From positions 58,827,121 to 58,891,120 of the forward strand of contig NC_134846.1 of assembly GCF_965363235.1 (NCBI RefSeq): DNA of 64,000 nucleotides. The letters are read 5' to 3'. The DNA comes from Mytilus galloprovincialis. Taxonomy: Eukaryota; Mollusca; Bivalvia; Mytilida; Mytilidae. Made by a program: the position numbers and the translations under genes. The notes under the pieces were generated by a model. That model had not been told where the DNA came from. It ran no database searches and saw nothing but the letters and a program-made list of their open reading frames with translations. Of this stretch, positions 40,681-61,913 are shown one piece after another; positions within the stretch are counted from its first letter, which is position 1; every line of letters starts with the position of its first letter.

Positions 40681-41677
40681 GCAGAGAAATGTTATGAAGT
40701 TCAGGTCGGCAGTTATGGAACAATGACTGCGTCATTTTCCAAAAACAAAGTATGTTTGTTATTGATTAGAAGACTTTGATCATCTCATTAGTAAAGGCAA
40801 GAATGTTGTTCACTTCTCCAATCAAATTATATACAAAATATATTTATAGTGTCAAAGGGATACATGTATCTATTTCTAAAAAGAATTGCTATGCATTGCC
40901 ATTGGTTCATTGTTAAAAGGATTTTGTGTTCTTTTTTAATTTAATCTATATACATGTATATATATCATAACATTTAAGAAATCAACTGTTTATGTATTCT
41001 AAGCTTTAATTTCAACTCTGATTGAAAATGATGTTTTCAGGAAATTTAATACAAATAAGCTTACTACTTTTAAAAAATGTAGTACAGAACTTAACGAAAG
41101 ACAGACACATTTCTTATTTAAGATCTATTTTATTTTTTCAAATCTATTTTCTATTTAAATATTAAAGCTCTTAAATTATTGACAAGCACATACATCCATT
41201 TGTTTCAAAAGCTAGATATAAAGTATATTTAGGTAGGGGAAGGATCTGGTTACTCATAATGCAGCTAGAGACAATAGATAGAAATAAGGCAGTTGCTTAA
41301 ATCTCAAGTATTGTTAATGCATAATATTTTATCTGTACTACAAAGTGATAACATACATATTTTCCTCTGAAATAGGTTATTTTTCATCAAACTATTTTAC
41401 TAAAATAATCGAAATGTAATCGAAAAGTAATCGATGATTACATCCAAATTTTTGCTGTAATCGACAAAGAAATGTTTTGAAAAGATAAAACTACTAATCC
41501 AAACTTTTTCTAGGAATACATAAATTATGTTTGATATTAAACTGGCAACTTTTAAAAAGACTGCATTAACTACTTCAAAAGCATTTAACCTGTTTTTATA
41601 AATTCAGCAATGGTTCCATGCTTTTGGATAGAAATAGAAACATTAAATTTAGCCTATTTAAATATGTTTCCAGTATA

Positions 41678-41683
41678 TTTATT
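41678..41683 (-). terminator. Candidate IVD poly(A) signal (AATAAA)
   Basis: TTTATT on the plus strand reads AATAAA on the minus strand, about 95 nt past the IVD stop codon at 41778-41780. It is the nearest canonical hexamer I found downstream. Confidence 0.5.
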
Positions 41684-41777
41684 CCCTGAGATGATTATTT
41701 TTTCAAGTGATTAATACTCCTTACAATGCTCAACATTTAATTCTTATCACAGTTGCTTACAATGAATTGTTCACACA

Positions 41778-44700
41778 TTATTTATAGTGAGCATTAATAG
41801 CACGTCCAATAATCAGTCTTCTAACTTCACTCGTACCAGCTCCTATTTCATATAATTTGGCATCTCTTAAAAATCTTCCTGTTGGATAATCATTGATATA
41901 ACCATTTCCACCTGAAAATTTACAAAATATGTTGGCCTGAAATCAATTACGTTATTTCTCATACAACAAGGAAACAATTAGCATTTGTCATTATTTTGAG
42001 GTTCTCATGCCACTTTTTTCAGCTATTTAAATCTTTTGTTAAAAATTATTAAATAAACATACTAAGACAAAATGTATTTGTTCATTGCTTTAAAAAAACC
42101 ATTAGTAAAATGCTTATGAAATTTCAGAATTAGAAGGTTTTTCGTTTTTGCCGTATAAAACTTCATGTCTATTTAAGTTTTCTCACCTAGAATCTGTATA
42201 GCATCCAGTGCTGTTTTAGTAGCTGCCTCTGCTGTATACAAAATTACAGCTGCACAGTCCTGTAGCATGTAAAAAAATAAAAAATTAGTGAGTTTAGCTC
42301 TGCTACTTAGCAATTGTTGGACTGAATGGATAACAAACATCTTTGCGATCAAAATTTGAAATAATATTAACTTGCATTTAAATTTTAAATCACATTAATC
42401 ATTTAAAAGGCTATTATATGGATATCTCAAGCCATCTGAATATTGAACAAACAAAAATGAGAAGCATTTAAACATCCACTGATACAATAAAAAAAATTGT
42501 GAAACAGACACATGCACGTATAAATGTATGTATTTTTACAATACTATATAGTTTGGCTTTACAAACTTGAAATGTGGAGAAATTCATTCCAAAACATGAG
42601 TCTTGCACGCAGAATCTCATGTCATAAATTTTTGTACATACATTTGGTTGTCGCTCCCCTCTATCTAATGCCCTAGCTACATTATAGACATATGAACGTG
42701 ATGCATTCAGTGTTGTATACATGTCGGCCATCTTGGCTTGGATCATCTAAAATGTTAAACACAAAATAATCATATAAGTAAAGAAATATCCTATGAAAAG
42801 TTTTGCACAGAAAAATAAGAGTGCACACACTGAAATATCTCTCCTGCTTTATTGACCATTATTTTTATGTAGAAAGTCGTAAAGACAAGTGAAACTGCTA
42901 GCTACTGCTCACTGATGATACCCCTGCCACAAGTGGATAGTATTAATAGTGTAAGAATATGCAAGTTTTCGGTAAACAGGATGTTGTTGAGTGATGAATC
43001 TGAAAACGCATTACACGGTATAGCTGACTTATTTTAACCCTGAAACCAAATTTCAGAAATCCTTGTATTGTAGTTCCTGAGAAAAATGTGACTAAAATTT
43101 TCAACTTGGCTGTCATGTGTAAAATCATACAAATGTTTGGTAAACAGGAAATTGTTGTGCGATGAATCTGAAAATGCATCACACGTTATAGATGACTTAT
43201 ATTTACCCTAAAAAACAAATTTCAGAAATCATTGTATTGTAGTTCCTGAGAAAAATGTGACGAAAATTTTCAACTTGGCTATCATGTGTAAAATCATACA
43301 AGCGTTCAGTAAACAGGAAGTTGTTGAGTGATGAATCTGAAAACGCATCACACGTTATAGCTGACTTATATTAACCCTAAAAACCAAATTTCAGAAATCA
43401 TTGTATTGTAGTTCCTGAGAAAAATGTGACAAAAATTTTCAACTTTGCTATCATGTGTAAAATTATACAAGCGTTCAGTTAACAGGAAGTTGTTGAGTGA
43501 TGAATCTGAAAACGCACCACACGTTATAGATGACTTATATTTACCCTAAAAAACAAATTTCAGAAATCATTGTATTGTAGTTCCTGAGAAAAATGTGACG
43601 AAAATTTTCAACTTGGCTATCATGTGTAAAATCATACAAGCTTTGACTAGCTGAACAGTGAAGTCATTATAAGGCATAATACTACCATTTTATATAGCTT
43701 ACTTATATAAACCCTGAAACCAAATTTCAGAAATCCTTGTATTGTAGTTCCTGAGAAAAATGTGACGAAATATATTCATAAGACGGACGGTCTGACGGAA
43801 GGATGGATGGATGGATAGACAGAGGTAAAACAGTATACCCCCCTTTTTTAAAGCGGGGGTATAATAAAGGTTATCTGACTATATTTAAGAAAGTAAAGAT
43901 TGATAACAGCATTACAGCAAAATGCATTGATTGTGTAGATGAAAGTAACTAGCTTGCTTGCTAACTGAACCATGAAGTCATTATTAAGTTAGGTACATGT
44001 ATACTACCCTCCTTTAAGATTAGACTAGTCCGACAGATAACCGATCTATCTGTCTGTAAGACTAGACTACTCCGAAAGGAGGGTAGTATTATGCCTTATA
44101 ATGACTTCACTGTTCAGCTAGTCAAAGATATTGCCTTAATTTACACACTCAATGCATTTTGCTGTAAAGAAATTGTTTTGACTGCTATCCTCTATCCTGA
44201 CCATTTGGGAAAAAAAGTCTGAACTGAGTGACACTAACACTTGCACTGTATTCTATTGGACGATGAATATAAGCTTAGAAAAAAAAAATCTTCACTGGGA
44301 ATTTTTTAAAGATCTAAAATATAGTACCTTATTCTTAATATGGGTTCGCTCTCCGTATATAAAAAGTGAATTTGCGTTTGGTGTATTTTAGCTAGAATTT
44401 TTTTTAAGCACAGAAAGTTTAACATAAGTATTTCTTTTCTTGATTGAAATTAATGAAATATTTATTAATACAAAAAAAAGTATAGTTCATCATGTGCATA
44501 TAAAGTTATGTGACATTTTTGTTTTCTTTCAGATGATATATATATACACTTTTAGAAAATTATTTATTTGGTATATATATAAAATATTTAATGGCTGTGT
44601 TGTTCAGTATAATAAAACACCTAAAATTGCCTCGAGCAATAGTTGGTACCTCAGGGACAACAAACTTGCTATTACCCTCACACCCAGTCAATAGGTGTAT

Positions 44701-47700
44701 AATATTATCTCTCTCATTTGTAACAATAATATTACTTTAAATACTGTACTAACCTGAAATTCTCCTATCTTTGTACCAAATTGCTCTCTAACATGAGCAT
44801 AATTAAAAGCAACATCACAACATGCTTGCATTATTCTGAAATAAATCATTATATGATTTTAAAATTTTATAGCACATCAAAAAGAAATTATAAACTGAGC
44901 ATTCAAAATAGATACAAGAAGATTAGGTATGAGTGCCAATGAGACAACTTTCCATCCAAGTCACAATTTGAAAAAGTTAACCATTATAGGTCAAAGTACA
45001 GTCTTCAACACGATCCCATTATGGATTTTTGCTTTAATACATTGAAAAATAGCAATTTTATAATACATTTGTGTATTCTGTTGCTGCCTTTGTGGATTTA
45101 GAATGTCTTTGCAAATATAGATAACATCGAATTTTTCTGACAGTATATATTAACATATATCAGAGTTTAAAAGTAATGGGCCTTTAACAAATTTTAAAAT
45201 GCATATGTAATGAAGTTACCTGATGCTTAAGTATTGTCCAGTGTGGCCTATGCAAATTTAAGCCAACACTTTGAACTTACCCAAGTGGACCTGCAGCCAA
45301 TACTAATCTCTCAATATCTAGACCACTAAATAGTACATACACTCCCCTGTTTAATGCTCCCATCATATTCTCAACTATCAAGGAAAGAAAGGGGTGTTTT
45401 CATCAGTGCTAAATTTTCTTGAATGTCTTATTGGTGCCATATATATAAATAAAGTGGCATTTTCACTCTGGAAAACATTTGGAAAACCAGAACACAAAAT
45501 GCTTTCAATAGCTCTGGTGAACAAAATGTTTTCCATGGAAAATCATAAAGCTAAGCAATTTTATGTTTATGACCACAAACTATTTAGAAATTTCACATTG
45601 ACTACAAATAATCATAGCCATTATGTTGGGAATACAAAATACAGCTATTTTATGGTGGTCAGTTTTTATTGGTGGAGGAAGCCAGAATACAACAATTTAA
45701 CATTCCTTCTTTAAAATGACATTCTAAATATAGTTTGTGGTCATTAGTGAAGCTGTACTCCTTGAGGATAAGTGTCGAAATTAGTGAGAATATATCTAAG
45801 ACATTACTTCAATCATAATTTTGTAAAAGATGACCATTTTTAAAAATGCTTCATCAAAGAAGACTGAAAACTGCAAATGCATAATATCAAATTATTTACT
45901 CAATGAATAACTCTACCAATTTATTTTCAAACTTTTAAACATGGTAGTGTCTTCAATATATTCTCATTACCTGTTGCTTTATAATCATACAGTTTAAAAT
46001 ATATATATTCCATTGCAATACACCATGTATGTCATGTATGTAGACAATTTGTATTCACACCTTTATCCATTTCATTAAATATGGGCTAAGTGTGTTGAAA
46101 TACTGCTGCTATCCAAACCTTAAACATGTCAACACCAAATATAATTTCATCTCCTAGAATTTTCAGATAAAATCACAACTGATGATGCTTAAATGAGATT
46201 TACAATAATTTGAAATAGAATTTAATCCCAAATACATGTTGTAGTGCCCAATGGACTAGCGAAATAAAGAATGTGTTGTCTACATAAGAATCACACAAGC
46301 AAATGTCACTTAAAAAACATTGTTCAAAATGAATTACAGCAAAATGCATTGTGCGTGTAGGTAAAGGTAATATCTTTGGCTAGCTTGCTTGTTAGCTGAA
46401 CCCTGAAGTCATTACTAAGTTAGGTATACAACCCTCCATTAAGACTAGACTAGTCCGTTAACAAATCCATCTGTCTGTAGGACTAGACAACTCAGATAGA
46501 AATGTAGTATATTTGACCTTATAATGACTTCACGGTTCAGCTAACATACAAGCTAGCCAAAGACATTACCTCTAATTACACACTCACTGCATTTTGCTGT
46601 AATACAAAGAAAGACTTCTAAAGATTTCTCAACATGAGAAGGTGACAGTTAAACATTTATTGTAATCAAAGAAAAATAAAATGGCTTCTTAAATGATAAA
46701 CTCATTGCTGTATAATTCTAGAAAATAAATTATCTGATTGGTTGATCATGAAAATACAAAACTGTTTTAAATAAATTTATCATAAGCCATGTCTGATTCT
46801 TATATAGAGTTGTAAAATAGGAGATTAAAGTCTCACCCTACACATCCACTACTTCCAAGACCTCTCTCTATATCTAGTCCAGACATTAGAATATAGACAC
46901 CTTTACCTACACCACCAATTATATTTTCTTCTGTAAATATAATTTTTAATTTTACAGAAATGGTCAAAGATTCAAACGGCTAGGTTGCAATGTGTAAGGC
47001 CTGTAACTCGAAAGACCATACAAATGACAGTAATATTTGATACAGTTTGGGGAGCATACAAACAAAAAGCAATACCTCCATAAAAAAGTTGCTAAAAAGA
47101 TACTTTACTGTTGTCTGCTCTATGGTCGGGTTGTTGTCGCTTTGACACATTCCCCATTTCCATTCTCAATTTTATTGATTACATCATTTGAAAAGTCTAA
47201 TAATCATTTTTCTATAATGAATAATAAAAAATGGGTATTGTGAGCTTCATCCTTCATTGTCATGTCCTTGAACCACTGACACAAAAACTGCAAAGATATG
47301 GTTTCTACCTTTTTTCTAAGCTACCTTTACTAAGAGTGGCTGAAAACTAACTCACTTTCAGAATTTGGAAATAACCTAAATATGTGTTCATTTTTTTGGC
47401 ACATATGCAATGTTATTCAATCATAATAAATAGACAATGTTTCAGTATGATGGCTTTAGATATTTTAATTACAAAATAGATACATGTTGTATTGCAATAA
47501 AACACTTTCTAGCTATGAGGCATTTTCTTGTGTGTATAATCTCACCCTGGAGCACAAGCTGCCACTATAACCCTTTCAATATCTAACCCAGACATCAGCA
47601 CATAGACACCTTTATTATTACCACCTAACATATTCTCAGCTGAAAGTATTTGAGAATAGTCTTGGCATGTAACTAATTTTTAAACATACGGTATATAACA

Positions 47701-50700
47701 TGCATCTTTATCTGAAAGCTTGAAGATTGAAATAAAAGGAGTAAGTTCTGTAAGGGCCATATTTGGCCCCGTTTATAAAGTTCAATGTAACACTATAAAA
47801 AATGTTTAAAGTTGATTTAGAGACACATGTGAGAAAGTTAATAGAACTATTTTTGTCAAAGTCTAATTCTAACACATTGATTTTTACATCCCAAAAAGGT
47901 CAAGATAAGAGATTTTGGTAAAATTTGACAAAATCGGCTGGATTTAAACCTAATTTAGGACCAGGAAACATAGACCGCAGACATCACCTCACTAAATATT
48001 CAAATAAGACATGTGAAATGTCTTCACAAACATTATTTTCAAAAATCTTTGTTGTCTACGTTTGCGCTCTATGTTTCCTCTCCAATAATCTATGGAAATT
48101 TACCCATTTTCGTTGATTTTTTCGTGGAAAATAAATATGAGTACAACTTGTGACATCATAATAAAATGCAGGAAAGAAATTGTTCAACAAAATGGCTTAT
48201 TTTCTATCTGGTCATTGTATTAGCTATAATTTATTGTGATATTGGTCAGTAAATCCTAATTGGAAATTTATGCTAAAAAAGGGGCCATTTCAGGACCTTA
48301 CCTTACCTTACTCCTTTACAGTGAAATGTAAAGTTGATTGAAACATAAAAAATGTTCAATGTAATTTTCTTGACCTAATAGTATTATCTATGTACCTGAA
48401 ATATTTAATGTTTTTTAATTATGTTTACATCTGGGTATTGTGAAGTCTTACCCATTGGGTTAATAGTTCTATATTACAAGACAATAAAACTAAAGCAGAC
48501 TTTACACAGCCATCTTGAGATGCATACAGGTTTGCTTCCAATACTTTTGAGAATAACTGGCATTAAATTGACATATACATATATATATATGAAATATTTC
48601 ACTAACTAAATATTTGTCTAAATATGATCTAATGTTTGAAATAAAATCAGTAAATTGTATTTTTTATTTTTTACCAGTAAACCATATTAGGTGATTGCTT
48701 TCTAATCACTGGTGCCCTTTACTGTATTGATGTTCTAACAACCATAAACATACAGCCGTATAATTCGGAGTGAAGATAATTCAAGAAGTTCAAGGAATTC
48801 ATGCCTTACTGGCTATTTTAAAGCATGTTTAAGTTTATGTTATTGATGAAAGCTTTGTCATCCTTTTTTTTTTTTTTTTTTTTTGGGGGGGGGGGGGGCA
48901 AAAATGCATAGGTTTATTTTAGAAATCATCATACATATATATTAATGTGCATGTAATGCTTACCTGGAACTTTACAATCTTCAAATATTAATTCAGATGT
49001 GTTGGAACCTCTCATACCAAGTTTATCTAACTTTGGTCCAGCAGAAAATCCTGGCATTCCCTACAAAATGTATTCAATACAAAGAAATTGAACATACATA
49101 TACTGAAATTTAAAAGTTTTAAGTTCAAATCAACACAGATAATCCTAAAGACTGTCCATTCAAAACACAATTAATGCTTGAAAGCTCTACATTTTGTAGC
49201 AACTGAATTAAAGGGGCATTAGCTGTCAAATTCATGGTCACCGATTTGACTCAAATTCTCATATTTGATTTATAACAATGTAAAACATTTATCCAAACTA
49301 TCAAAAGTCCAAAATAAACAGTTTACAGAGCATGGGGTAGATAAGTCCAGACGCCATCTAATTAACTATCAATTTGACCTCAGATGACCATATAAGCGAT
49401 GTAAACATAAATAAAGATATGAATAGATTAAACCAACACATGCAATTGGATTTTTATAGGGCTGTTTGGTTTTATTTTATAGATTAAAAATAGATGTTTC
49501 TCATTGTTTTTAACCGTATAAGAATGATTTTATGTGCATCGAATTGGTAATGAAATGATTTACCGTAGTTTCACTTTCATTGTTGACATTCTTTTTCTTT
49601 AAATAACCAGTACACGTACAATGCATGCGTTGTCAATCTCCAGCTAGGGGTTAAATTGAAGTTCACATGAATACGGATTTCAAGAGGTCGACTCATTCAC
49701 TTGCAAGTGAATAACTATTATCAATGTTTCTTAGCGTAATTTGACACAATTGAACCTTTTTGGCTGCAAAAAGTGAATTGTTATTTCACTATTTCACTTT
49801 CATTATCGATTGAACAGAAAAAAATCAAACTTTAGATTTTTTATATATCTCGTAGCTAGTGCCCCTTTCAGTAATTTGGGACTTTGAAAGTTAAAGATTT
49901 TCATCTCATCGAAACCAATGAATCATCTTTATTCCTGTAATTTTTGTAAGTTCAAGTAAGAACATAAAAATAAGATTTCAGACAGGGTGTATGTCCTCAG
50001 TCAATTTGAGACCATTTTATGGTTACCTTTTCTATAAGGAAAGCTGTAATACCATGTTGTGGTTTATCTGAAGTGATATCTGTTTTAGCATACACTACCA
50101 GTACATCAGCATCAGGACCATTTGTTATCCAGAACTTATTACCATTTAATACATAGTGATCACCTTCAAGTGTAATGAAATTTAATTTAATTTTAATTTT
50201 ACTATATAATCACTATGAGACAGTGCAAAGGTAATATCTGATACTGTACTGCCTTCAAAAATATCAGGGACCCGTACCATGAGGCATAACAAAATTACTC
50301 CAAAACTTTCTATGCTGTTATTTATTAACTGTGTGTATGTTTTTTTCCCCGAGTATTATCAAGTTTTAAAATTATTTGATCCTGTGTGGTTTGTATGCAT
50401 GGCTATACAAAAGACACTTTATTCACGATTCATGGAAATGTGGAAAAAGAATGCACACCAGGTCATGCAGTTCATTTAAAATATTGAAAATTTTAAACAT
50501 CATTCCTGCCTACCTCTGACAAAATTAAAAGACATTCTATTCAAACAGACTAACAGATAACATGAAAGTATTATAACCCCATGTATAATAATAATTTTAC
50601 CTTTCTTTTCAGCTTTCAATTTCATTGATACAACATCTGATCCTGAGTTAGCCTCACTCATAGCTAATGCCCCTACATATTCTCCTTTAATTAACTGAAA

Positions 50701-53700
50701 CAAACATACCAATTTGTAATGTTAGTATCAATGCTTCTGTCAGTTCATAATAAGCATTGCACATTTTCAACTTGTATTTTAAATACACAAAACAGAGGTA
50801 GATTTAGGGATGCAGGGGGCTACTCCCTTTTCTTGAGAGAAATTTTGTTAATTATATTGGGAATCACTGAAGCATGACTGAAGCGTGCCCACTCTTAGGC
50901 AGTCAGTGGGCCCCCACTTATGAAGATTTCTGGAATAATCTGGATCCTCCACTGCAAAATACCACTCAACTCCCATATCCCTAATCACCCACAATATATT
51001 TTTATATTAATTTTATTTATTTATTTAAATAATAAAACCAAAACCCTATTACACACACACACACAGGTTCAATTATGGATTTGCCCTAAGAATTACTATC
51101 AATACACATACCTTAGGTAGATATTTGTCCTTCTGTGCCTCTGTTCCATTTCTGACAAGCTGATTGATACATAAGTTTGAAAAAGCACCATAACTGAGAG
51201 CTATGGCTGCTGAAGCCCTGGACATTTCTTCCATCACAAGACAGTGGTCTAAATAAGACATTTCTGATCCACCATACTTAGCTAAAATTAAATATCCAAG
51301 CTGAATATCAGATCAGTAAGAACCACTTACTTGGTCTCTTTTATATCCTAGTAATAGATTATCCTAGCTGTATTTGACATAACCTTTCAGAATTTTGGGT
51401 CCCAAACACTCTTCAACTTCCTGTTTTATTTATCTTTTTTAACTTTTCTTTATTTGAGTGTTACTAATGAGTCTTTTGTAGACGAAACATACATTTGGTG
51501 TACAAAATTTTAATCCTGGTGTCAATGAGTTTATTTGATATATAGCTCAAAAATTGACTATGTTGCTACAATTTAATAAGTGTATTAATTTAAGGTAAAT
51601 CTAGGAAAAATAATTTTTTTGTACATCTTCTTCTGATTAAGTGTAGGACTCATTTTGAGTATAGTCATACATGGTGTGTATAATTGTCTTTTTCTGAACA
51701 TTTTAACAACATATTGAAAATGTATTAAACAAGAATGTGTCTCCAGTACACAGATGCCCCATCCACATTATCATTTTCTATGTGGACCGTGAAAATTGGG
51801 GAAAATCTCTAATTTGGCATTAAAATAAGAGAGATTATATCATAGGGAAAATGTGTACTAAGTTTCAAGTTGATTGGACTTCAACTTCATCAAAACTACC
51901 TCAACCAAAAACTTTAACCTGAAGCAGGACGAAAGAACAAACAAATGAACGAACATATGGACACACATACCAGAAAACATAATGCCCATAAATGGGGCGT
52001 AATAAATAGGGTATTAAAATGAAAAGTTTCCTATTATATAACAATCAAAGAGCTGATAGCTCTGAGGTGGAAGAAGGTGAATAAACATGATAAAAGGTAA
52101 TTTGAATTACCATAAAAGCAGCCCCACTAACCCAGGCTGCTTTGTTCCATTTATTGTTTTTGAGATACGGAGGGATATATGAAACCATCCCCCCCTCTTT
52201 TTTCTTCAAAAAAACTAAATATCACTAAAATAAAATTTTGAATCAAAACCAAAAAGTATACAGATCTTCAGATTAATATAACAAAGAAGTGTGTAAAGTT
52301 TTAAGCAATAATCATAAATTATTTTTGAGATACGGTGCAACATGTAAAAAAAAAACCTCCCCCTTTTTTTACAAAATACTAAATAACTGAGAAAAAAAAA
52401 TTTTGAATCATCACCAAAAAGTATACAGATGTTTAGATTAATATAACAAAGAAGTGTGTAAAGTTTTAAGCAAAAAAAAAGAGGAAGAAGAGTTTGTTTG
52501 CACTTGCAGTTTTTAAATCCTATATTTATTAAAATAAATCAAAATCAAATGTCCTGAAATATTTATGTGAATTATTATCTTCCATCCATAGTTTGTCTTT
52601 CTTTGTTTAGTAAACAAATTAATATCCATTTAGACCATAATTTACATTTTCACACAGGTAAATTAATTTGGCTATAAATAGATCAAAGCATGTCTGTGTA
52701 GAATCTCTAATCTAAAATCTTAATTGTTATAATTTTATTTCTTTAAATAATCAAATTTAAATTTATGAAAATAATCATGATTGATAAAATAGTATTGCAT
52801 AAAGTTTGCGTTTTCGGAAGACTATTTATGTTTAGGTCATGGTTCTAGAGGCTTCTTCACATATTTGTAAACAAACCAATATGGCTGCCACATGTGATTA
52901 CCTTGCACATGTGAAACAAATATTTCAGACAAAAGTTAGATTACTCTTGTCAAAAGGGATTTAAATTTATATTGCAATAAATTATTCAGAAGGAGGTACA
53001 TTCAGTTTAGATTATATTTCTTCTTCTATGAGCATTTAGAGTTTAATCAAAATTCTCCAAACAGCAACGTACTGCTCTTGTCAACTGAGTCTTGAATAAT
53101 TTTATAAATACATTCAAACCATTTGAAGTAAAAAGGCATCTAATTCACAGGACAAAGGAAAACAATGAATAAAGACAACAATTTAAAGAGAAATAGATCC
53201 CTTCTATTTATTAAAAACAAAATCTTCTTGTCTGCAAATACGTAACTTCAAGGGCGAACGTGTAAATAGGGCGAGTTGTCCCGATACCAAATTCACGCAT
53301 GCGTACTTCAAATATCTACATTAAAAACATCCGGTTACAAGTAAACAAATAACGTTCATGTAGATGAGATGAAATCTAATAATTTACATAAATAAAAGGG
53401 TACATATTTACGATAGTGATTATTTTTCAATCCTAATTTACAAATTAAATGATTCAGATGCTTAATCATGTGTAAAAATCGGTGTCAGGAAGTTGTTATG
53501 AAATTGTAATACACAGAAACGAATGGGGCATACGGAGAATTCAAAGATTTTAAAGTCGGCACCATTGGCCTTCAGAAGACTTGAAGTCTTCTTTCACCAA
53601 AAACTAGCCACCTAACCTTCATAATAGTTATTTGAAAATGTAACTTTATTCTGATGTTAGAACAAACCTGGTGCTGTTATGCCAAGTAATCCCATCTCTC

Positions 53701-56700
53701 CACATTTTTTCCAGAAATCCTAAATACAAAGATAAAAATCTTGGAGTAGATAATAAAACAGACACTCTTGCAATAAGGCATTATAAGAAAAACAATAGCT
53801 TAAGGAGGCTCGCGGGTACAAAAATTCCAGCAAAAAATCAAACATTTTTTTTTTTCATTATAAATTTTATTTATTACACTATTAGTTATTTCTTTATAAT
53901 ATGGTACAAAAATCAACCAAAATCAGGTGCTCCACAGGGCGCAGCTTTATACAACCCCAGTGGTTGAACCCTGAACAGTTGGGGCTAATTTGGTCACAAT
54001 ATTCAAGCTTGATTCTGTCTGAATTTGGATTGTGATCAAATTTTTTACATAATATAGGTTTTTGTCACAAAATTAATGTGGTCAAAGATCTAACAAATCT
54101 ATTGCACAATACTGTGCAATTGGAGATTTCTTCTTAAAACTTTTCAAAATTCGAAATTCGAAAAATTTTGAAAAAAAGGAAGCCCTTCAAAAAATGGTAA
54201 ACCCCTCCCCCCCCCCCAACTTTTTGAAACCCCCTTGGAGCATAAACCCTTAAACTCAATCCCATGCTTTCCATTGCAGTATTGAACCTTGTAGTACAAT
54301 TTCAGAGAGATCCAAGACCATACACTTAAACACAAGTTATTGTCATGATTGTTTGGAAACTAGAAACATGCTTCTTTTTGGCCCCTAATTCCTACATATT
54401 TTGGACAATTAACCCAAAACTTAATCCCAGCCTCCCCTTTGTTATATGGTACATTGTGGTACAATTTCAGAGAGATCCATACAATTACACATAAGCTATT
54501 GTCTTGAAACTAGAAAAATGCTTGTTTTTACCCCTTTTTGGCCCTTAATTCCTAAACTTTCGCCCCATAACCCCTCAAATGAATCCAAACCTTCTACTTG
54601 TGGTTTTAAACATTGTGGTATGATTTCAGAGCAAATGAAATACTTCTACACAAGTTATTATCCTGAAACTAGAAAAATGCTTGGGTCCCTTTTGGGACCC
54701 TAAATCCAAATCGGTTGGGACCATCATCCCCAAAATCAATCCCAACCTTTTGTGGTATTGAATCTTCTGAAAAATTTCATGAAGATCTATTAACTTAAAC
54801 TAAAGTTATTATCCGGAAACCAATGTGTCTTCGGACGACGACGACGCAGATGACAACATCATACCATTATACGATCCCAAAAATTTTTTGGGGTCGTATA
54901 AAAAATTGATTTAGTTTGGCCCCAGATATAAAATGTTTATATTATTGAAAAAGCTCCAAATTATCTCCCTTTGGTGCAAAAAAGCATTTTTTTTGGCATT
55001 AAAATTGAAACATCTTTTTAAACTCATCTGTGACCTATATTTTTTATTATTGTTTTCAAATAAGCTGTACGTAAACTAAATAATGGTAAAATTTAAGCAA
55101 TTTCTGCAGTTTTGTTCTTTTTTTATTTCTATATTACCTTTATTTCTTCTATTAGTTCAACAGAGAAAAAAAAGTTAACAAAAATGTATGCTTCTTTCGT
55201 AGGCAGATTGTGAGCTTAAATGAACGGTAACCCCATTTTTTTATTTCATTTTTCTGTTAAGTATATGATAAAGTTGTGAGCTTAAATGAACGGTGACCCC
55301 ATTTTTTTATTTCATTTTTCTGTTAAGTATATGATAAAGTTCTTTTATAAAAAAATATAGGGAAATCCTATATTAGAAAAAAATCGAACCCGTGAGCCCC
55401 CTTAATCCCTGCTTTTTAGGAGTGGAAATTTGATAATAAAAGTCTGTATGTCAGTTATTTTTACATAATTTTCATAGTACAAAGCCTGTAATTTAGACAA
55501 AATCAGAAGAGCTTTACGAAATTATCACTCAATCTGTAACTCGTCATAGTAGATTCACATACTTAAAATCAGCTCAATATGTGAAGGAGTTTAGAAAAAA
55601 GTCTGTAAAACTGTTTATTGGGAATTGACAGAATGATGGACAAGGGTAAAACTATATGGCTGCAACCACTTTGTGCTTTTTTTTCATATAACTACAAAAG
55701 AGTTTCACAAACTTCAAGTCTTACTTGGTATGGACTCTGCTCATTATTGAAGACTGTATGGTGACCTTTAGTTGTTAACTTCTGTGTCAAATGGTCTTTT
55801 ATAAATTGAGAATTGTCTCATAGGCAATTATACCATATCTTCTTTTTATATTTACAAGACACTAAGCCAAAAAGATATGAACAAAGGCTACCATTGTTGA
55901 TGTGTGTGACTAAGGACAGGCAATAATCTTTTTTTTATGTGTACAAGATAAATGGAAATATTCCAATAATAATGTACTTACTCTTAAATCTTTAAATTCA
56001 TTGTTATGATCAATTTCTTGTGCTTTTGGTGCTAGTTCTTTTTGACAAAACTGAAAAACTGACTGTCTCAACTGAAAAATAAACCATGAATTGTGCTAAC
56101 ATACAAATATCTATTAAATTTAATTGTATTACAATAAACACATAAACACTAAATGTGTTCAAAGCTAAGATGACCGGTACAAAATCTTATAATGCTACTT
56201 AAACACTTACAATCTTACAACTATTACATACTCCAAATATAGTTGACTGTTTGCTAAAAGTACATCTGAGAAACAAATGATTAAAAACACCCGTGAAAAT
56301 AATTTAGTTTTAAGTCTTTTATATTATGGTAATTATCCACCAGTTTTAATGTTTAATTTTGTAACCTTGTCCAAAGGTTTGGTGTCATGGATGTTAGAGT
56401 TAAGATTTTAACTTTATCAAAATAAATAAACAATTGTTTTGATAAAAAAAAACATAATGTACGTAAGTTTAATAAACATGAACAATGTTACAATGAGATT
56501 TCTGTCTAATTTCTTGAGCATACTTGTTTATCTTTTTTTAAATTATATAATTTTAAATTGAATAATACATGTCTTTTAATATAAATATAAAAAATCCTTC
56601 AAAATGAAGGAACATAAACTTTGTTTACACTGAAAGATGTCTTGAACATATAATTCCTAACAATGTACATCTACATTTCCATATTTTTTTAAGGTTGAGT

Positions 56701-57927
56701 CAGTAAGTGATGATATTGTTAAAAATTAGATGTTTTAATATTTTGATACTGATGAATTAAACATCTTTTAGATATTATAGTTAAGATTTGAAGGTTTACA
56801 TCTTTTAGAGAATGAGGTGATATTTTGTCTGGAATTATAGCTATCTATAGATCTATAGGTTTATGTTCCCCAATAGGCTATTTGCCAATTCCCGCTATTG
56901 ACCCTGTAATTACATACCTTTTTTTTTAGTTGTCTCCCTTATGAGGGACATTAATTTTTATTTACAACGGAGAGCTAGCAGAAAGAGCAAATTTACCTGT
57001 GCGTAATGTGAGTAATCTTTAAGGTTTACAAATCTTTTAATTACATTAATTTGTTGCTTTCAAGCTTAATACTTTTGACATCTGAAATTATTTTTCATGA
57101 AAGATTAGTTAAACCGCCGAAACATCACTTTCAACTCATCAAGCCAATTTTGTCCTGTATGGAACCAGTCTACGAATCTAACAGAATCAAATCGGTAATT
57201 GGCAAATGGACCATTATGGTAGAAAAAAAATAATAGGGAAAATTTCCCGAAATTTTCATTCTACTAATGAACTCAAAATCGTTAACCTTTTTTTTTCAAG
57301 ACTTTTTTAAATCCCAGCATCAGCGCAGATACTTACTTCCTTTTCCCAGTCTTGTTTGCATGAGACTTTGAATAACATATTTGTTTATCACTCTAGTAAA
57401 CTAGGAAGGAACTCAATAACGGCATTTCTGTTTCTTTTTTTTCAAACATCATGAACATGTTAAAAAAAATTATACAGACTTTGTCCCCTTTCACAGGTAA
57501 TGCCTGCCTCACATTATACATATTAAGATGACATGTAAATGTATGAATAACATAAACCAAAATTTTTCTCAACAAAACAATAGAGCAAATTACATTCCCA
57601 ATTTATTATGGACTTTAACAAGCAACGCTTCGAGTAAAACTCATCTGGTGGTGCTGTCAGTCTGGGTTGCTTTGTAATCATTACATCCATGTTAACTAAT
57701 AATTTTGGATTAGAACCATGTTAATAGTCAATTTCATATTAGGATCACATAAATTTGTTATGTAAACATCCCAAGCTTCATACCTGTTTTTGTTCTTCTG
57801 TCAAGCCAAACAATGAATCGTTTACAGGATAATACGAACAACATTTTGAACTTTTTATGTTGAACTTATGTTTTGGTGTGTTTAGTACTCTTTTTAAGAG
57901 TCCCCTGTGTAAAAGTTTCAGGGTCAT
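41778..57927 (-). CDS. IVD: Isovaleryl-CoA dehydrogenase, mitochondrial (12 exons used, 423 aa, exon 8 in three versions)
   Basis: FAD enzyme of the mitochondrial matrix that oxidises isovaleryl-CoA to 3-methylcrotonyl-CoA in leucine breakdown, passing electrons to ETF. Exons, minus strand: 57927-57784, 56071-55982, 53719-53668, 51281-51112, 50694-50601, 50163-50027, 49060-48964, exon 8 (one of three), 44835-44754, 42746-42642, 42259-42187, 41911-41778. With any one exon 8 the CDS is 1272 nt and open to TAA. The N-terminus [20 protein letters not shown] is basic and acid-free, a mitochondrial presequence. Acyl-CoA dehydrogenase signature 1 is [12 protein letters not shown] (exon 5); signature 2 is [20 protein letters not shown] (exons 11-12); [11 protein letters not shown] and [18 protein letters not shown] are IVD-typical. 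The catalytic base is E283 in exon 8, the helix-G glutamate characteristic of IVD. It aligns almost end to end with vertebrate IVD (423-426 aa). A reverse CCAAT box lies at 58025-58029, about 100 bp before the ATG. Confidence 0.95.
42950..43790. repeat. Tandem array, about 168-bp unit, 4-5 copies, IVD intron 9
   Basis: 'ttgttgagtgatgaatctga' or variants recur at about 42983, 43153, 43321 and 43490, and 'tgtagttcctgagaaaaatg' recurs with the same step. The array ends in a GACGG/GATGGATGG-rich piece and a C-run (43785-43860). 43641-43690 holds a scrap of the MITE at 43915-44164. Confidence 0.8.
43915..44164. mobile_element. TA-flanked palindromic MITE, copy 1 (IVD intron 9)
   Basis: Ends CAGCAAAATGCATTG and its inverse, with TA directly outside (43913-43914, 44165-44166). 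Most of its 250 bp folds back, e.g. 'tgaagtcatta' against 'taatgacttca' and 'agactagactactcc' against its partner. The class is probably Tc1/mariner-derived, judged from the TA duplication. Copy 2 is at 46336-46599. Confidence 0.8.
44925..45035 (+). repeat. Dispersed repeat fragment (R4 family, other end)
   Basis: 'atgagtgccaatgagacaac', 'ccatccaagtcacaatttg' and 'accattataggtcaaagtac' form a block that looks like the complementary end of the R4 repeat (which has 'tgtctcattggcaatcat'). Non-coding. Confidence 0.5.
45281..45374 (-). CDS. IVD: IVD exon 8, version C (canonical, catalytic Glu)
   Basis: 94 nt, entered in phase 1 and left in phase 2. The acceptor is CTTTCCTTGATAG, the donor GTAAGT. 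With the split codons it reads [20 protein letters not shown] then [12 protein letters not shown]. The LVLAAGPLG tail is the same as or close to vertebrate IVD, so this is the ancestral-type exon. The catalytic glutamate is in LDIER. It is the version nearest the common exon 9. Confidence 0.92.
46336..46599. mobile_element. TA-flanked palindromic MITE, copy 2, between IVD alternative exons C and B
   Basis: Same ends (CAGCAAAATGCATTG / inverse), same internal stems, TA outside (46334-46335, 46600-46601). 264 bp, diverged from copy 1 mainly in the loop. It lies in the interval separating exon versions C and B. Confidence 0.8.
46837..46930 (-). CDS. IVD: IVD exon 8, version B (alternative)
   Basis: 94 nt, same phases as C and A. 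The acceptor is TATTTACAG, the donor GTGAGA. It reads [20 protein letters not shown] then [12 protein letters not shown]. The first two thirds match IVD well. The segment after the catalytic glutamate is unusual: rich in glycine and serine, with no LVLAAG. The frame and both splice sites are intact, so it does not look dead. It could still be a rarely used or decaying copy. Confidence 0.85.
47546..47639 (-). CDS. IVD: IVD exon 8, version A (alternative)
   Basis: 94 nt, same phases as B and C. The acceptor is ATACTTTCAG, the donor GTGAGA. It reads [20 protein letters not shown] then [24 protein letters not shown] is closer to vertebrate IVD than version C is (which has [12 protein letters not shown]), while the tail VIVAACAPG departs from LVLAAGPLG. 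It is the first version met by the transcript after exon 7. Confidence 0.88.
47735..48317. mobile_element. Palindromic MITE with AAAGGAGTAAG ends, IVD intron copy
   Basis: Reverse-orientation copy of 23297-23837: 'aaaggagtaagttctgtaag' at the left, 'cttaccttactccttt' at the right, and inner stems around 'aggaaacatagaccgcagac' and 'gtttgcgctctatgtttcct'. 583 bp. It lies 96 bp upstream (in transcription terms) of exon version A. Confidence 0.75.
48864..48899 (+). repeat. Long T-run joined to a G-run
   Basis: About 20 T followed by about 14 G. On the IVD sense strand this is a C-run followed by an A-run, about 65 bp past the exon 7 donor. Homopolymer lengths of this kind are prone to assembly error. 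Confidence 0.75.
49210..49868. mobile_element. MITE-like element with AAAGGGGCAYTAGCT ends in IVD intron 6
   Basis: The left end AAAGGGGCATTAGCTGTC and reversed right end GAAAGGGGCACTAGCTACGA pair over about 15 bp. About 660 bp, no coding frame. The target duplication is not clear. Confidence 0.6.
51360..51530 (+). repeat. R1 tail fragment in IVD intron 3
   Basis: A diverged copy of the R1 tail: 'tttcagaattttgggtccca', 'gtgttactaatgagtctttt', 'gtagacgaaacatacatttg' and 'ttttaatcctggtgtcaatg'. Confidence 0.6.
51725..52005 (-). repeat. R5 copy, reversed, in IVD intron 3
   Basis: Matches 22676-22995 in the other orientation: 'gatgccccatccacattatc', 'agtttcaagttgattggact' and 'cataatgcccataaatgggg'. 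Confidence 0.7.
52095..52495. repeat. Two tandem units of about 165 bp
   Basis: 'acaaagaagtgtgtaaagtt' recurs at about 52281 and 52446, with shared 'gagatacgg', a C-run and 'accaaaaagtatacagat'. The rest of this intron (52496-53667) is AT-rich and featureless to me. Confidence 0.7.
53804..55401. mobile_element. TTAA-flanked element (piggyBac-type MITE) with internal tandem units
   Basis: TTAA lies at both edges (53800-53803, 55402-55405). The inverted ends read GGAGGCTCGCGGGT and, reversed, GGGGGCTCACGGGT. Inside are three to four units of about 160-167 bp (54220-54800) sharing 'acaatttcagagagatcca' and 'gaaactagaaaaatgctt', then an inverted 'acgatcccaaaaa'/'tttttggggtcgta' hairpin (54870-54900), then a two-copy 66-bp direct repeat (55206-55338). 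No transposase frame. It is in IVD intron 2. Confidence 0.7.
55735..55860 (+). repeat. R4 copy in IVD intron 2
   Basis: 'gaagactgtatggtgacctt', 'ttctgtgtcaaatggtcttt' and 'caattataccatatcttctt' match the R4 copy at 22535-22680. Confidence 0.6.
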
Positions 57928-58639
57928 TTTTCCAAAAAATATAGCGGAAGTATTTGATTTAATATAAATTCGGAATCAACTTCGGATAAAGTGGACATTC
58001 CGTTTTTACGGATATTGATAGTTGATTGGTTGCAATTTGCTTAACGTAAAATGGCAAATGATTTCAAGTACTAGTGATATGATTTATATTTACTGAGAAC
58101 AAAAACACTTTTACGGTTACTCATCTTGTTTTGTCTTTAATTAGATCCATCCTATATAAGGACCAACTCCTAACGAGAGTAATAGTTAAGGATACAATGT
58201 ATCAACATTTGATGAAATGAAAAATGAACTCTATAGTGGGGCTTTGTCTTGTAAATAAAGACTGTTAAGTTTGCTGACAATTTAAATCAATTATGAAAAA
58301 ATAGTTTCATGTCCAAATTTCAGTCGATTAGAACTTTCTGTAGAGACATTTCCTAGGACCAATTGACCTAAAAATCTACACGTGGCTTTTTTTTTTACAT
58401 CCGTGCGCTAAATCCAACAATTGTTAGAGATCTGATTTATTACTCATTTGGAAACGAAACTATCACACGCACTGGTGTATCTCTGATTTGACACGCTACT
58501 TTTTTCAAACGTATAAGTTTTAATTTACTCTCTCCGTACGTCTCAGATCTGATAAAAAGATGTTTGAAGGTTAAACCTAATTAAGGTATAGCATACATTA
58601 ACATGTTTTATTATTTTTTTTTTGTGATGTTTGATAAAA

Positions 58640-59600: not shown

Positions 59601-60483
59601 CACTATCTATATGTCGCGCTTTCTGCAAAAATTGCAGACTCGACAAAAAAACGAAGAAATGAATCTGAACCCCTGGGCTCGTCTCCTCTATTATACTAGT
59701 AAGTCTTTTACAAAATGTGCAGGTAAAATATTTAACTTAGAAAAAAAAGTTTAATATGGTTGAAAAATAGATAATTTGAAGTTGAATTGGATAGAAATTT
59801 TAAAAATGTATACATATTAATGTGTTTAATAATTTCTTTAATTTGCATGTGTAATGTCAGTGAGTATTATGTCCATCTGGATTGGCCCTTTGATTCTGCT
59901 ATGCCCATTAATATGATAAGAGCTTCGGTGAGTAATCGACTTACTGATAAATCTCAATTTTATATCTCTACATTTGTTATTAACTATTACTTTTCCTGCT
60001 ACTTTAAATCTATCGAACCAAAAAGCTTGTATTAATTGTCTGATTTTGTTTGCTTTACCGTAATAACGCACAGTGACAATATTTCATCAATATTCCATGT
60101 TGAGGAAACGACCAACCTAACGATAGTAAGTAGGTCTACAAAGTAGGTTGACCAAGATAAAGCGAGGTATATTTAGAAATCCTGTGAAATAAGAAGGTAA
60201 CACTTTGGGTGTACACAATTAATAAAATATATAAAAGGAGATGATGGTTAAAGTTCGATGAGAAATCAACCAAGTAACATGGATTGACCAAACTTGACGT
60301 ATATATATGAATCAAATGTACTTATAAAGCGCAGGTATAGTTTACTAATTGAAACGGGTGTCAGTATATTTCAAAAGCACGATCTCAACTATTTAAATGA
60401 AAGAAAATCAACTTCATACAAGAAAATTGTTTAACCAATATGGTTTCGCTTTTCCCTAAAATCGGGAACAGGTGTGGTATATA

Positions 60484-60830
60484 TTAAAATACCTTAGACT
60501 GTTAGTAGCATATTAAAATACCTTAGACTGTTCGTAGCATATTAAAATACCTTAGACTGTTAGTAGCATATTAAAATACCTTAGACTGTTCGTAGAATAT
60601 TAAAATACCATAGACTGTTCGTAGAATATTAAAATACCTTAGACTGTTCGTAAAATATTAAAATACCTTAGACTGTTCGTAGAATATTAAAATACCTTAG
60701 ACTGTTCGTAGAATATTAAAATACCTTAGACTGTTCGTAGAATATTAAAATACCTTAGACTGTTCGTAAAATACCTTAGACTGTTCGTAGAATATGTAAA
60801 TACCTTAGACTGTTCGTAGCATATATCAAG
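60484..60830. repeat. 29-bp minisatellite, about 12 copies
   Basis: The unit is 'ccttagactgttcgtag' plus 'aatattaaaata'. Most copies differ by one base, chiefly a C/A in 'ttcgtag'/'ttagtag' and A/C in 'gaata'/'gcata'. The last units are shortened. It is a simple head-to-tail array without unique spacers. Confidence 0.9.
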
Positions 60831-61913
60831 CCAAATTTGAAAGTCAAACACTGTATAAATTTCCTCCGACGCATATCAGTGTGTGTTAAAAAAAAATATT
60901 ATTGGGTCCCCTTTTTCTGTGTAACGTTTATCGTTCATCCATTATAGACTTTACTACTTCATTGTCTAATAAACATTTTGCCAAAAATGAATTACAATTT
61001 TGATTAGTGGTGGATATATACACGGCCGACACTCGGCTAACCGAGAGATAGGTCGGTTAATCTATATTGAGTATCCGGCTATATCGGCGGTGGGTCTGTT
61101 AATCGGGTTGGTTATACGTCTGTTAAGAGTAAAACTCACAATTTAATGTTAAACTCTGTTAGATATACAGATTTTTTGGCACATTATGAGAATCACATCA
61201 AAAAAAGAAAAGTGTCTGACAAAATGATATCTATCATAGAACATTTTCCACCATTAAAAAAAATGCATAGCCTGCGCAATTTTAAGTAAAACGAAAAGGC
61301 GTCGCGCAAGTATGTGGTTTTTATGCTTGTACGCATAGCAATATTTTAGATAAAAGGCCAAAAACCATTTTTAGATATGATTTAAAGGACACAAAGTACT
61401 AAAAAATCAATTGTCATTGATAAAAATTTCATAATTGTTATATAAGTTGAGTTATACCACATTTTAATGAATAATAGGGGAATACAGTCTGTTAATGGGT
61501 TGGACAATTCAAATCGTGTCAGTTAAGAGTTATTTAGCCACGACAATAGTCTTACTACCTTGAGTTTATATTTTCACATTGAAAAAAATGAGATGTACTA
61601 ATGACGAAAAAATTACAATACGGTGCAACAGTATCCTTATAGAAAGAGCACTTTTATTTTAATTTTTTTTTCTCTGCATTTCATTAAAAGGGTGTGTCAC
61701 TTCAAATTAGCTTTATATGGACTGATTGGCCGCTCGAATTCGCATGAATTTATTATTTACGCCAAGTTATCAATCAGCCTTATTTTTTTGTCTGTTCAAA
61801 GTCTGTAACATCTATGAATCTGTCATGTGTTGCAATTCAGCTGGTTTAAGTCCATGCGTTGTCTTTGGAATACTAAGGCTTTTCTACCTTAGGAATAGAT
61901 TACCTTATGCCGG

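Follow-up and report, generated by a model that had tools for sequence, protein, structure and literature searches.

The IVD gene and its exon 8 copies

The window analyzed here, a 64,000-nt stretch of Mytilus galloprovincialis contig NC_134846.1 (positions 58,827,121 to 58,891,120), contains a complete isovaleryl-CoA dehydrogenase (IVD) gene on the minus strand. The gene comprises 12 coding exons with GT-AG boundaries, extends from 57927 to 41778 in window coordinates, and encodes a product of 423 residues when a single copy of exon 8 is used. Coding exon 1 (57784–57927) begins with the ATG at 57927, a start codon picked by homology and identical to that of P0001, an NCBI protein model described below. 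Exons 2 (55982–56071), 3 (53668–53719), 4 (51112–51281), 5 (50601–50694), and 6 (50027–50163) lead to exon 7 (48964–49060), the constant exon preceding the exon 8 cassette; exon 4 encodes L124, which corresponds to human L127 and forms the constant half of a barrier in the acyl pocket. The cassette is followed by the constant exon 9 (44754–44835), by exons 10 (42642–42746) and 11 (42187–42259), and by exon 12 (41778–41911), which includes the stop codon. All of these exons lie on the minus strand, as do the copies of exon 8.

Three copies of exon 8, each of 94 nt, occupy the cassette in the transcription order C (47546–47639), B (46837–46930), and A (45281–45374), and by coordinates the introns between them measure 615 nt (C–B) and 1462 nt (B–A). 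An earlier note on this DNA had placed the three exons at these positions, and they are indeed found there, on the minus strand. All three are open in the frame that the gene requires, with an AG before and a GT after every copy as that note had described. A repeat finder grouped the copies into one three-member family of direct repeats, 77 nt long, in which two copies are 62% and 74% identical to the reference; the remaining direct repeats in the examined stretch are 16–21 nt long. The coding length upstream of the cassette is 784 nt, so that every copy is entered in phase 1 and a single 94-nt exon is left in phase 2, in agreement with the phases given previously. The sequence GVY(V/I)L(M/F)SGLDIER, also reported in the earlier note, is indeed encoded by all three copies.

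The reading frame restricts how these copies can be combined. When the eight possible inclusion patterns were translated through the whole coding sequence, three read through, each containing exactly one copy and yielding 423 residues. Premature stops arise at residue 263 without any copy, at 294 with C+A or B+A, and at 302 with C+B or with all three copies. Only the single-copy products are thus productive, since all other combinations shift the frame and stop early, and the transcripts of those combinations would presumably decay. The earlier expectation that two copies together would shift the frame is confirmed by these stops. The companion statement that including all three (282 nt) would preserve it is incorrect, because an insert length of 1 mod 3 is required and 282 is divisible by 3. 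As the three-copy product is also out of frame, the case for exclusivity is stronger than was originally claimed. The copies lie next to each other, are homologous, and share length, phase, and GT-AG splice sites, the arrangement expected of mutually exclusive exons, and the frame admits one exon per productive transcript.

Among the 20 genome matches to IVD that were listed, 11 show at least 78% identity and the other nine are 30–47% identical. Separate paralogous genes or retrocopies were ruled out as a source of the isoforms, because all listed matches with at least 78% identity fall at the window locus. The scan scored 40 candidates in the 1.38-Gb assembly, which makes the locus count a lower bound; among these candidates, IVD is single-locus and no IVD retrocopy was found. 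The DNA of exon A has a single match in the genome, which is exon A itself. No Rfam families were found in 41000–58500.

Exon 8 versions in database models

A full-length protein search (best 120 of 7995 proteins listed) was combined with searches using the exon 8 regions of version B (best 120 of 825) and version C (best 120 of 309). The pooled set contains 301 distinct proteins; it is biased toward the queries, and the 90%-identity clusters of the database hide close isoforms. P0001, a model of M. galloprovincialis labeled "isoform X2" in the naming style of NCBI RefSeq predictions, is identical to window isoform B, letter for letter over 423 residues. An X2 model of M. edulis (P0002) likewise carries B, with one difference in exon 8 (Val to Ile). 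Version A is carried by one M. coruscus model, by another M. edulis model, and by P0005, which is probably a cDNA because it presents a complete 423-residue frame on a 1,888-base contig. Two entries of the set show irregular structures: P0003, an IVD model from M. coruscus, bears about 120 extra N-terminal residues that by eye resemble an unrelated membrane protein and is probably a fused gene model, and P0121 from Tanacetum coccineum (689 residues) contains two IVD catalytic helices, probably from two genes fused in annotation.

The X1 and X2 models of C. virginica (420 residues each) differ at 12 positions, all within 259–289, and those of Mya (422 residues each) at 13 positions, all within 261–291. 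In both species this interval lies in the exon 8 block, the two isoforms are identical outside it, and the X1 and X2 models lie on equally long contigs. One Plakobranchus gene model includes both a B-like copy and, downstream of it, a canonical one, which is the order found in the mussel. Ten molluscan models among the 301 listed proteins carry B-like versions, as do one model from a bryozoan and one from a priapulid. Version C of the window was found in none of the 301 retrieved proteins, a set in which 90%-identity clustering would hide such a protein. Hence, the proposal that the gene makes three IVD isoforms through an exon 8 cassette stands with respect to exclusive choice, on the basis of the frame and of the database models for A and B, whereas its third member has no counterpart among the retrieved proteins. 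A splice switch between versions A and B is well supported, and version C would form part of the same switch.

The three copies show signs of constraint. Out of 94 nucleotides, 59 are identical between C and B, 59 between C and A, and 51 between B and A; the corresponding numbers out of 32 residues are 18, 20, and 16. The differences are in excess at third codon positions for C–A (one-sided Fisher test, p = 0.0008) and B–A (p = 0.0026), and the bias is not significant for C–B (p = 0.09). The Nei–Gojobori dN/dS is 0.22 for B–A and 0.40 for C–B, and synonymous change is saturated for C–A. Conserved columns of exon 8 were defined by at least 93% conservation in 285 canonical IVD rows, namely the 301 rows minus 13 with Gly or Ala at the position four residues after the catalytic glutamate (hereafter the gate), two with Val, and one with a gap. 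Of the 14 columns so defined, 12 are retained in B and likewise 12 in C; both versions have lost the gate column, together with a Val-to-Ile change in B and a Gly-to-Cys change in C. This retention exceeds chance: when copy A was randomly mutated to the same nucleotide divergence, none of 50,000 draws preserved at least 12 columns at the divergence of B, and a fraction of 4e-5 did so at that of C.

These values bear on the alternative that only A is used, with B and C being exon 8 copies that are dead or dying. The pyrimidine-poor acceptor of B (9 of 20 bases) and the lack of a C-containing protein among those retrieved are in line with such decay. However, B is present in NCBI isoform models of two Mytilus species, B-like forms recur in eight further molluscan models and in two other phyla, and both B and C remain open with the conserved columns retained as above. 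The chance that they are defunct appears very slight.

The acyl pocket and the consequences of exon choice

The catalytic glutamate of helix G (human E286) is retained as E283 in A, B, and C. The earlier note had emphasized this residue; it does reside in exon 8 of all versions, but it is constant, and the variation falls on the helix that follows, including a barrier residue of the acyl pocket. After the Glu-Arg pair, the tail reads LVLAAGPLG in A, the canonical IVD form, VIVAACAPG in C, and GLGSSGCVG in B, the latter being identical in P0001. According to the accessible text of a cryo-EM study of human IVD (PMC12369846), L127 and L290 bound the acyl pocket at its bottom as a barrier that is proposed to exclude chains of at least C7, and the residues at these positions in medium-chain acyl-CoA dehydrogenase (MCAD) are T121 and V284. 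In our alignment, human L290 corresponds to E286+4, which is the gate position of exon 8, and the barrier partner, L124 in the mussel, is invariant in 44 aligned sequences. The gate residue is Leu in A, Val in C, as in MCAD, and Gly in B. Accordingly, the exon swap alters a residue of the substrate site, and Leu occupies both barrier positions in A, with the second replaced by Gly in B and by Val in C. The position of the change in the pocket is assigned by alignment, and an effect on the substrate would be expected from it. As far as the portion of PMC12369846 available describes the comparison, the L290 site that distinguishes human IVD from MCAD is the one also switched in the mussel, where version C has the MCAD residue; the human difference lies between separate genes, whereas the mussel difference lies between exons of one gene.

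Across the 301 rows, the gate residue is Leu in 282, Gly in 9, Ala in 4, Val in 2, Ile in 2, and Met in 1, with one gap. Of the 13 rows with Gly or Ala, ten are molluscan: Mytilus (2), Haliotis (2), C. virginica, Plakobranchus, Ruditapes, Dreissena, Mya, and Tegillarca. The other three come from the bryozoan Watersipora (X2) and from Priapulus (X3), a priapulid, with the 385-residue protein P0182 as the last. The altered gate form is thus spread over molluscs and is also found in two further phyla. P0182, encoded on a 5.9-kb contig with the tail VIASSQCVG, is the only non-animal-looking row with an Ala gate among the 301, and judging from this row, bacterial relatives of IVD may show the gate change as well. 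The two Val gates belong to Ostrea edulis X3 and to a protein of the hemichordate Ptychodera; the tail of the latter, LIVAACAVG, is similar to that of window C.

The best PDB match of the A form is human IVD (8sgr, 647.7 bits), against which the B form P0001 scores 633.3 bits; the next family follows at about 302 bits. Structure prediction for isoform B (P0001 with 43 relatives) gave a mean pLDDT of 84.1, an intact helix at 272–308, and a TMt of 0.98 to 8sgr. For the A-type Mytilus protein P0004 (43 rows), the pLDDT was 85.6, with predicted helices at 272–277 and 280–308. In overall sequence and predicted fold, the A and B forms are IVD. Since B and C lack the second barrier Leu, they are classified here as isoforms of the IVD gene, not as enzymes of proven IVD specificity. 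No NCBIfam family, in a prokaryotic library, reached the cut-off for four proteins. Exchanging the exon among versions A, C, and B changed the score to 118.1, 111.5, and 103.3 bits for human IVD (8sgr), 42.0, 47.4, and 47.1 bits for MCAD (2a1t), 37.0, 39.0, and 40.0 bits for VLCAD (2uxw), and 39.1, 46.9, and 35.1 bits for LCAD (8w0t). The shifts toward longer-chain dehydrogenases are small and mixed.

We propose, with a probability of roughly 60%, that a single IVD gene employs a three-way mutually exclusive exon 8 and that splicing resets its acyl pocket to graded depths. Exactly one of C, B, and A would be spliced between exons 7 and 9, and each choice would produce a 423-residue acyl-CoA dehydrogenase with an unchanged catalytic glutamate. 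The rest of the catalytic helix would change, above all the residue four positions after the glutamate, which together with the constant L127 would constitute the floor limiting acyl-chain length. In this arrangement, A with Leu would be an ordinary IVD, C with Val would resemble MCAD at this residue, and B with Gly would have its floor opened. One gene would thereby supply enzymes of graded pocket depth, of which the B and C forms may oxidize longer or bulkier acyl-CoAs. The Gly in the B helix could also simply lower activity.

A related possibility is that the exon choice is real and that B and C serve regulation, either as weakly active tetramer subunits damping leucine oxidation or through altered stability. 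The location of the swapped exon within the catalytic helix, where B places two glycines, is compatible with such a role. In contrast, the catalytic glutamate and 12 of the 14 conserved columns persist in both versions, the predicted fold of isoform B is that of IVD, and the recurrence of a Gly or Ala gate in 12 animal models fits a tuned pocket better than a loss of function. We consider a regulatory role for B and C unlikely on balance.

Mutually exclusive exons that rewrite an enzyme active site constitute a small known class, for which coq-2 and CYP4F3 are the examples in the accessible text of PMC7434440. Exons 6a and 6e of coq-2 are found there in nematodes, flatworms, annelids, and molluscs. 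Like exon 8 of mussel IVD, they are equal-length exclusive exons that remodel the enzyme core beside the substrate, across phyla that include molluscs; unlike it, they belong to another enzyme and number two instead of three, and their substrate switch and use were proven by experiment (PMC7434440, in the part available). CYP4F3, named in the same part of that paper, has alternative exons whose splicing alters the substrate preference of a lipid-oxidizing enzyme, which parallels what would occur in IVD. It differs from mussel IVD in being a mammalian cytochrome P450 with tissue-specific splicing, and its exons are not known to occur across phyla. Splice events rewriting an active site are rare, and the IVD switch would act on the residue proposed as the chain-length barrier in humans (PMC12369846, as far as its accessible text goes).

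The unusual part of the mussel gene is the presence of three graded versions at a specificity gate. A search of the open-access literature, without preprints, found no description of IVD with mutually exclusive exons, exon duplication, bivalve splicing, or Mytilus isoforms. Similarly, no acyl-CoA dehydrogenase with mutually exclusive exons changing its specificity was found in the open-access literature and few subscription journals. Among the titles listed by broader searches (20 each of 149, 1,779, and 5,350 hits, and 8 of 280), none reports such a case. The isoforms are already present as automatic database models, for which no published account was found. If the proposed tuning by splicing holds, the existing X1 and X2 labels conceal a functional switch, and leucine and fatty-acid oxidation in bivalves would not be readable from gene content alone. 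Mussel IVD provides a ready test of whether a central catabolic enzyme is tuned by exon choice in animals.

Molluscs, bryozoans, and priapulids are often low-oxygen animals, and in some worms relatives of acyl-CoA dehydrogenases serve as anaerobic reductases. B-like IVD was found in hosts from these three groups. The B or C form might be anaerobic, for instance reducing enoyl-CoA with rhodoquinol-derived electrons, and be chosen at low oxygen in parallel to coq-2. According to the accessible text of PMC7434440, helminths, annelids, and molluscs possess an exclusive coq-2 exon pair that switches the substrate, and parasites change over to the e-form when their life becomes anaerobic. However, no expression or biochemical link was found, the open-access literature contained no paper on Mytilus, anoxia, and isovalerate, and the 301 listed proteins include no B-like form from an annelid, a nematode, or a flatworm. 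An anaerobic function is thus quite improbable, and graded pocket depth remains the preferred reading.

Age of the cassette and control of exon choice

A tree of 43 exon 8 peptides was calculated from 31 columns, with the gate column left out. In C. virginica, Mya, Plakobranchus, and Mytilus, the B-like copy clusters with B-like counterparts from other species, not with the canonical copy of the same species. The B-like rows form two supported groups (96/87 and 96/89) instead of one, and a single clade is not rejected (p-AU 0.38). Window C groups with Ptychodera (92/87). Shuffle tests of clustering were not significant, as 76 of 500 shuffles for the B-like rows and 66 of 500 for the C-like rows were as low as observed. 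With 31 columns, the tree is only suggestive of the ancestry of the cassette, and the B-like copies may have converged on one function. The distribution of B-like versions over bivalves, gastropods, a bryozoan, and a priapulid indicates that the cassette is old, whether through common descent or repeated origin. Greater depth is hinted at by Priapulus, with its B-like tail, and by the C-like tail of Ptychodera, a hemichordate. It is conceivable, though doubtful, that the protostome or bilaterian ancestor already possessed the cassette, so that one gene would act as several acyl-CoA dehydrogenases, with the acyl range set by splicing through a Leu, Val, or Gly floor and perhaps linked to oxygen like coq-2.

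The splice sites of the three copies differ in quality. The 20 bases before the AG contain 17 pyrimidines in A, 13 in C, and 9 in B, compared with 12–15 in the constitutive exons of the gene. The donor is GTAAGT in A and GTGAGA in both B and C, the latter being the same as in the constitutive exon 11. These sites suggest that A is the default exon and that B is the copy most in need of help. Enforcement of exclusivity by different spliceosome types was ruled out, because all sites are ordinary GT-AG sites by eye.

A candidate RNA pairing spans exon B on the minus strand. One arm, at 47480–47498 in the C–B intron, is complementary to an arm at 46012–46030 in the B–A intron, for which a weaker competitor exists at 46232–46250. 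The local pairing scan gave 18 of 19 paired bases and −20.8 kcal/mol for this weak candidate, which was matched by 0 of 60 and then by 8 of 1500 shuffles of its own intron pair and was the best of six pairs tried. Whole-intron duplex folding placed the energies of five intron pairs all inside the shuffled range. The pairing element has 19 genomic matches with at most one mismatch, two of which are the pair itself, and a reversed control had 0. A 16-base form, chosen post hoc, has three matches in the window, a number reached by 2 of 100 shuffles. The element may be a dispersed repeat sequence, and the pairing carries little weight as a splice-control element. As far as the accessible text of PMC6071210 describes the docking site and selector sequences of Dscam exon 6, their geometry resembles that of the exon B-spanning pairing with its weaker competing partner; unlike those clusters, the mussel element has near-copies elsewhere in the genome.

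Several repetitive elements lie in the introns and flanks of the gene. The B–A intron contains a 277-nt palindromic element at 46330–46606 (127-nt arms, 78% complementary), with a 76% identical copy at 43911–44167 in the intron between exons 9 and 10; it looks like a small terminal-inverted-repeat transposon. In the same exon 9–10 intron, a stretch of roughly 200 bases that includes TTTCTCAGGAACTACAATACAA recurs, by eye, several times on the minus strand at 43050–43760. Upstream of the IVD gene, a tandem array with a unit of about 30 bases (…ACGAACAGTCTAAGGTATTTTAATATTCT…) was noted by eye on the minus strand at 60480–60860. On the plus strand, a 114-residue open frame at 2592–2936 resembles by eye the active-site region of a reverse transcriptase (FNSSTRYIDGVLS) and is likely a mobile-element remnant.
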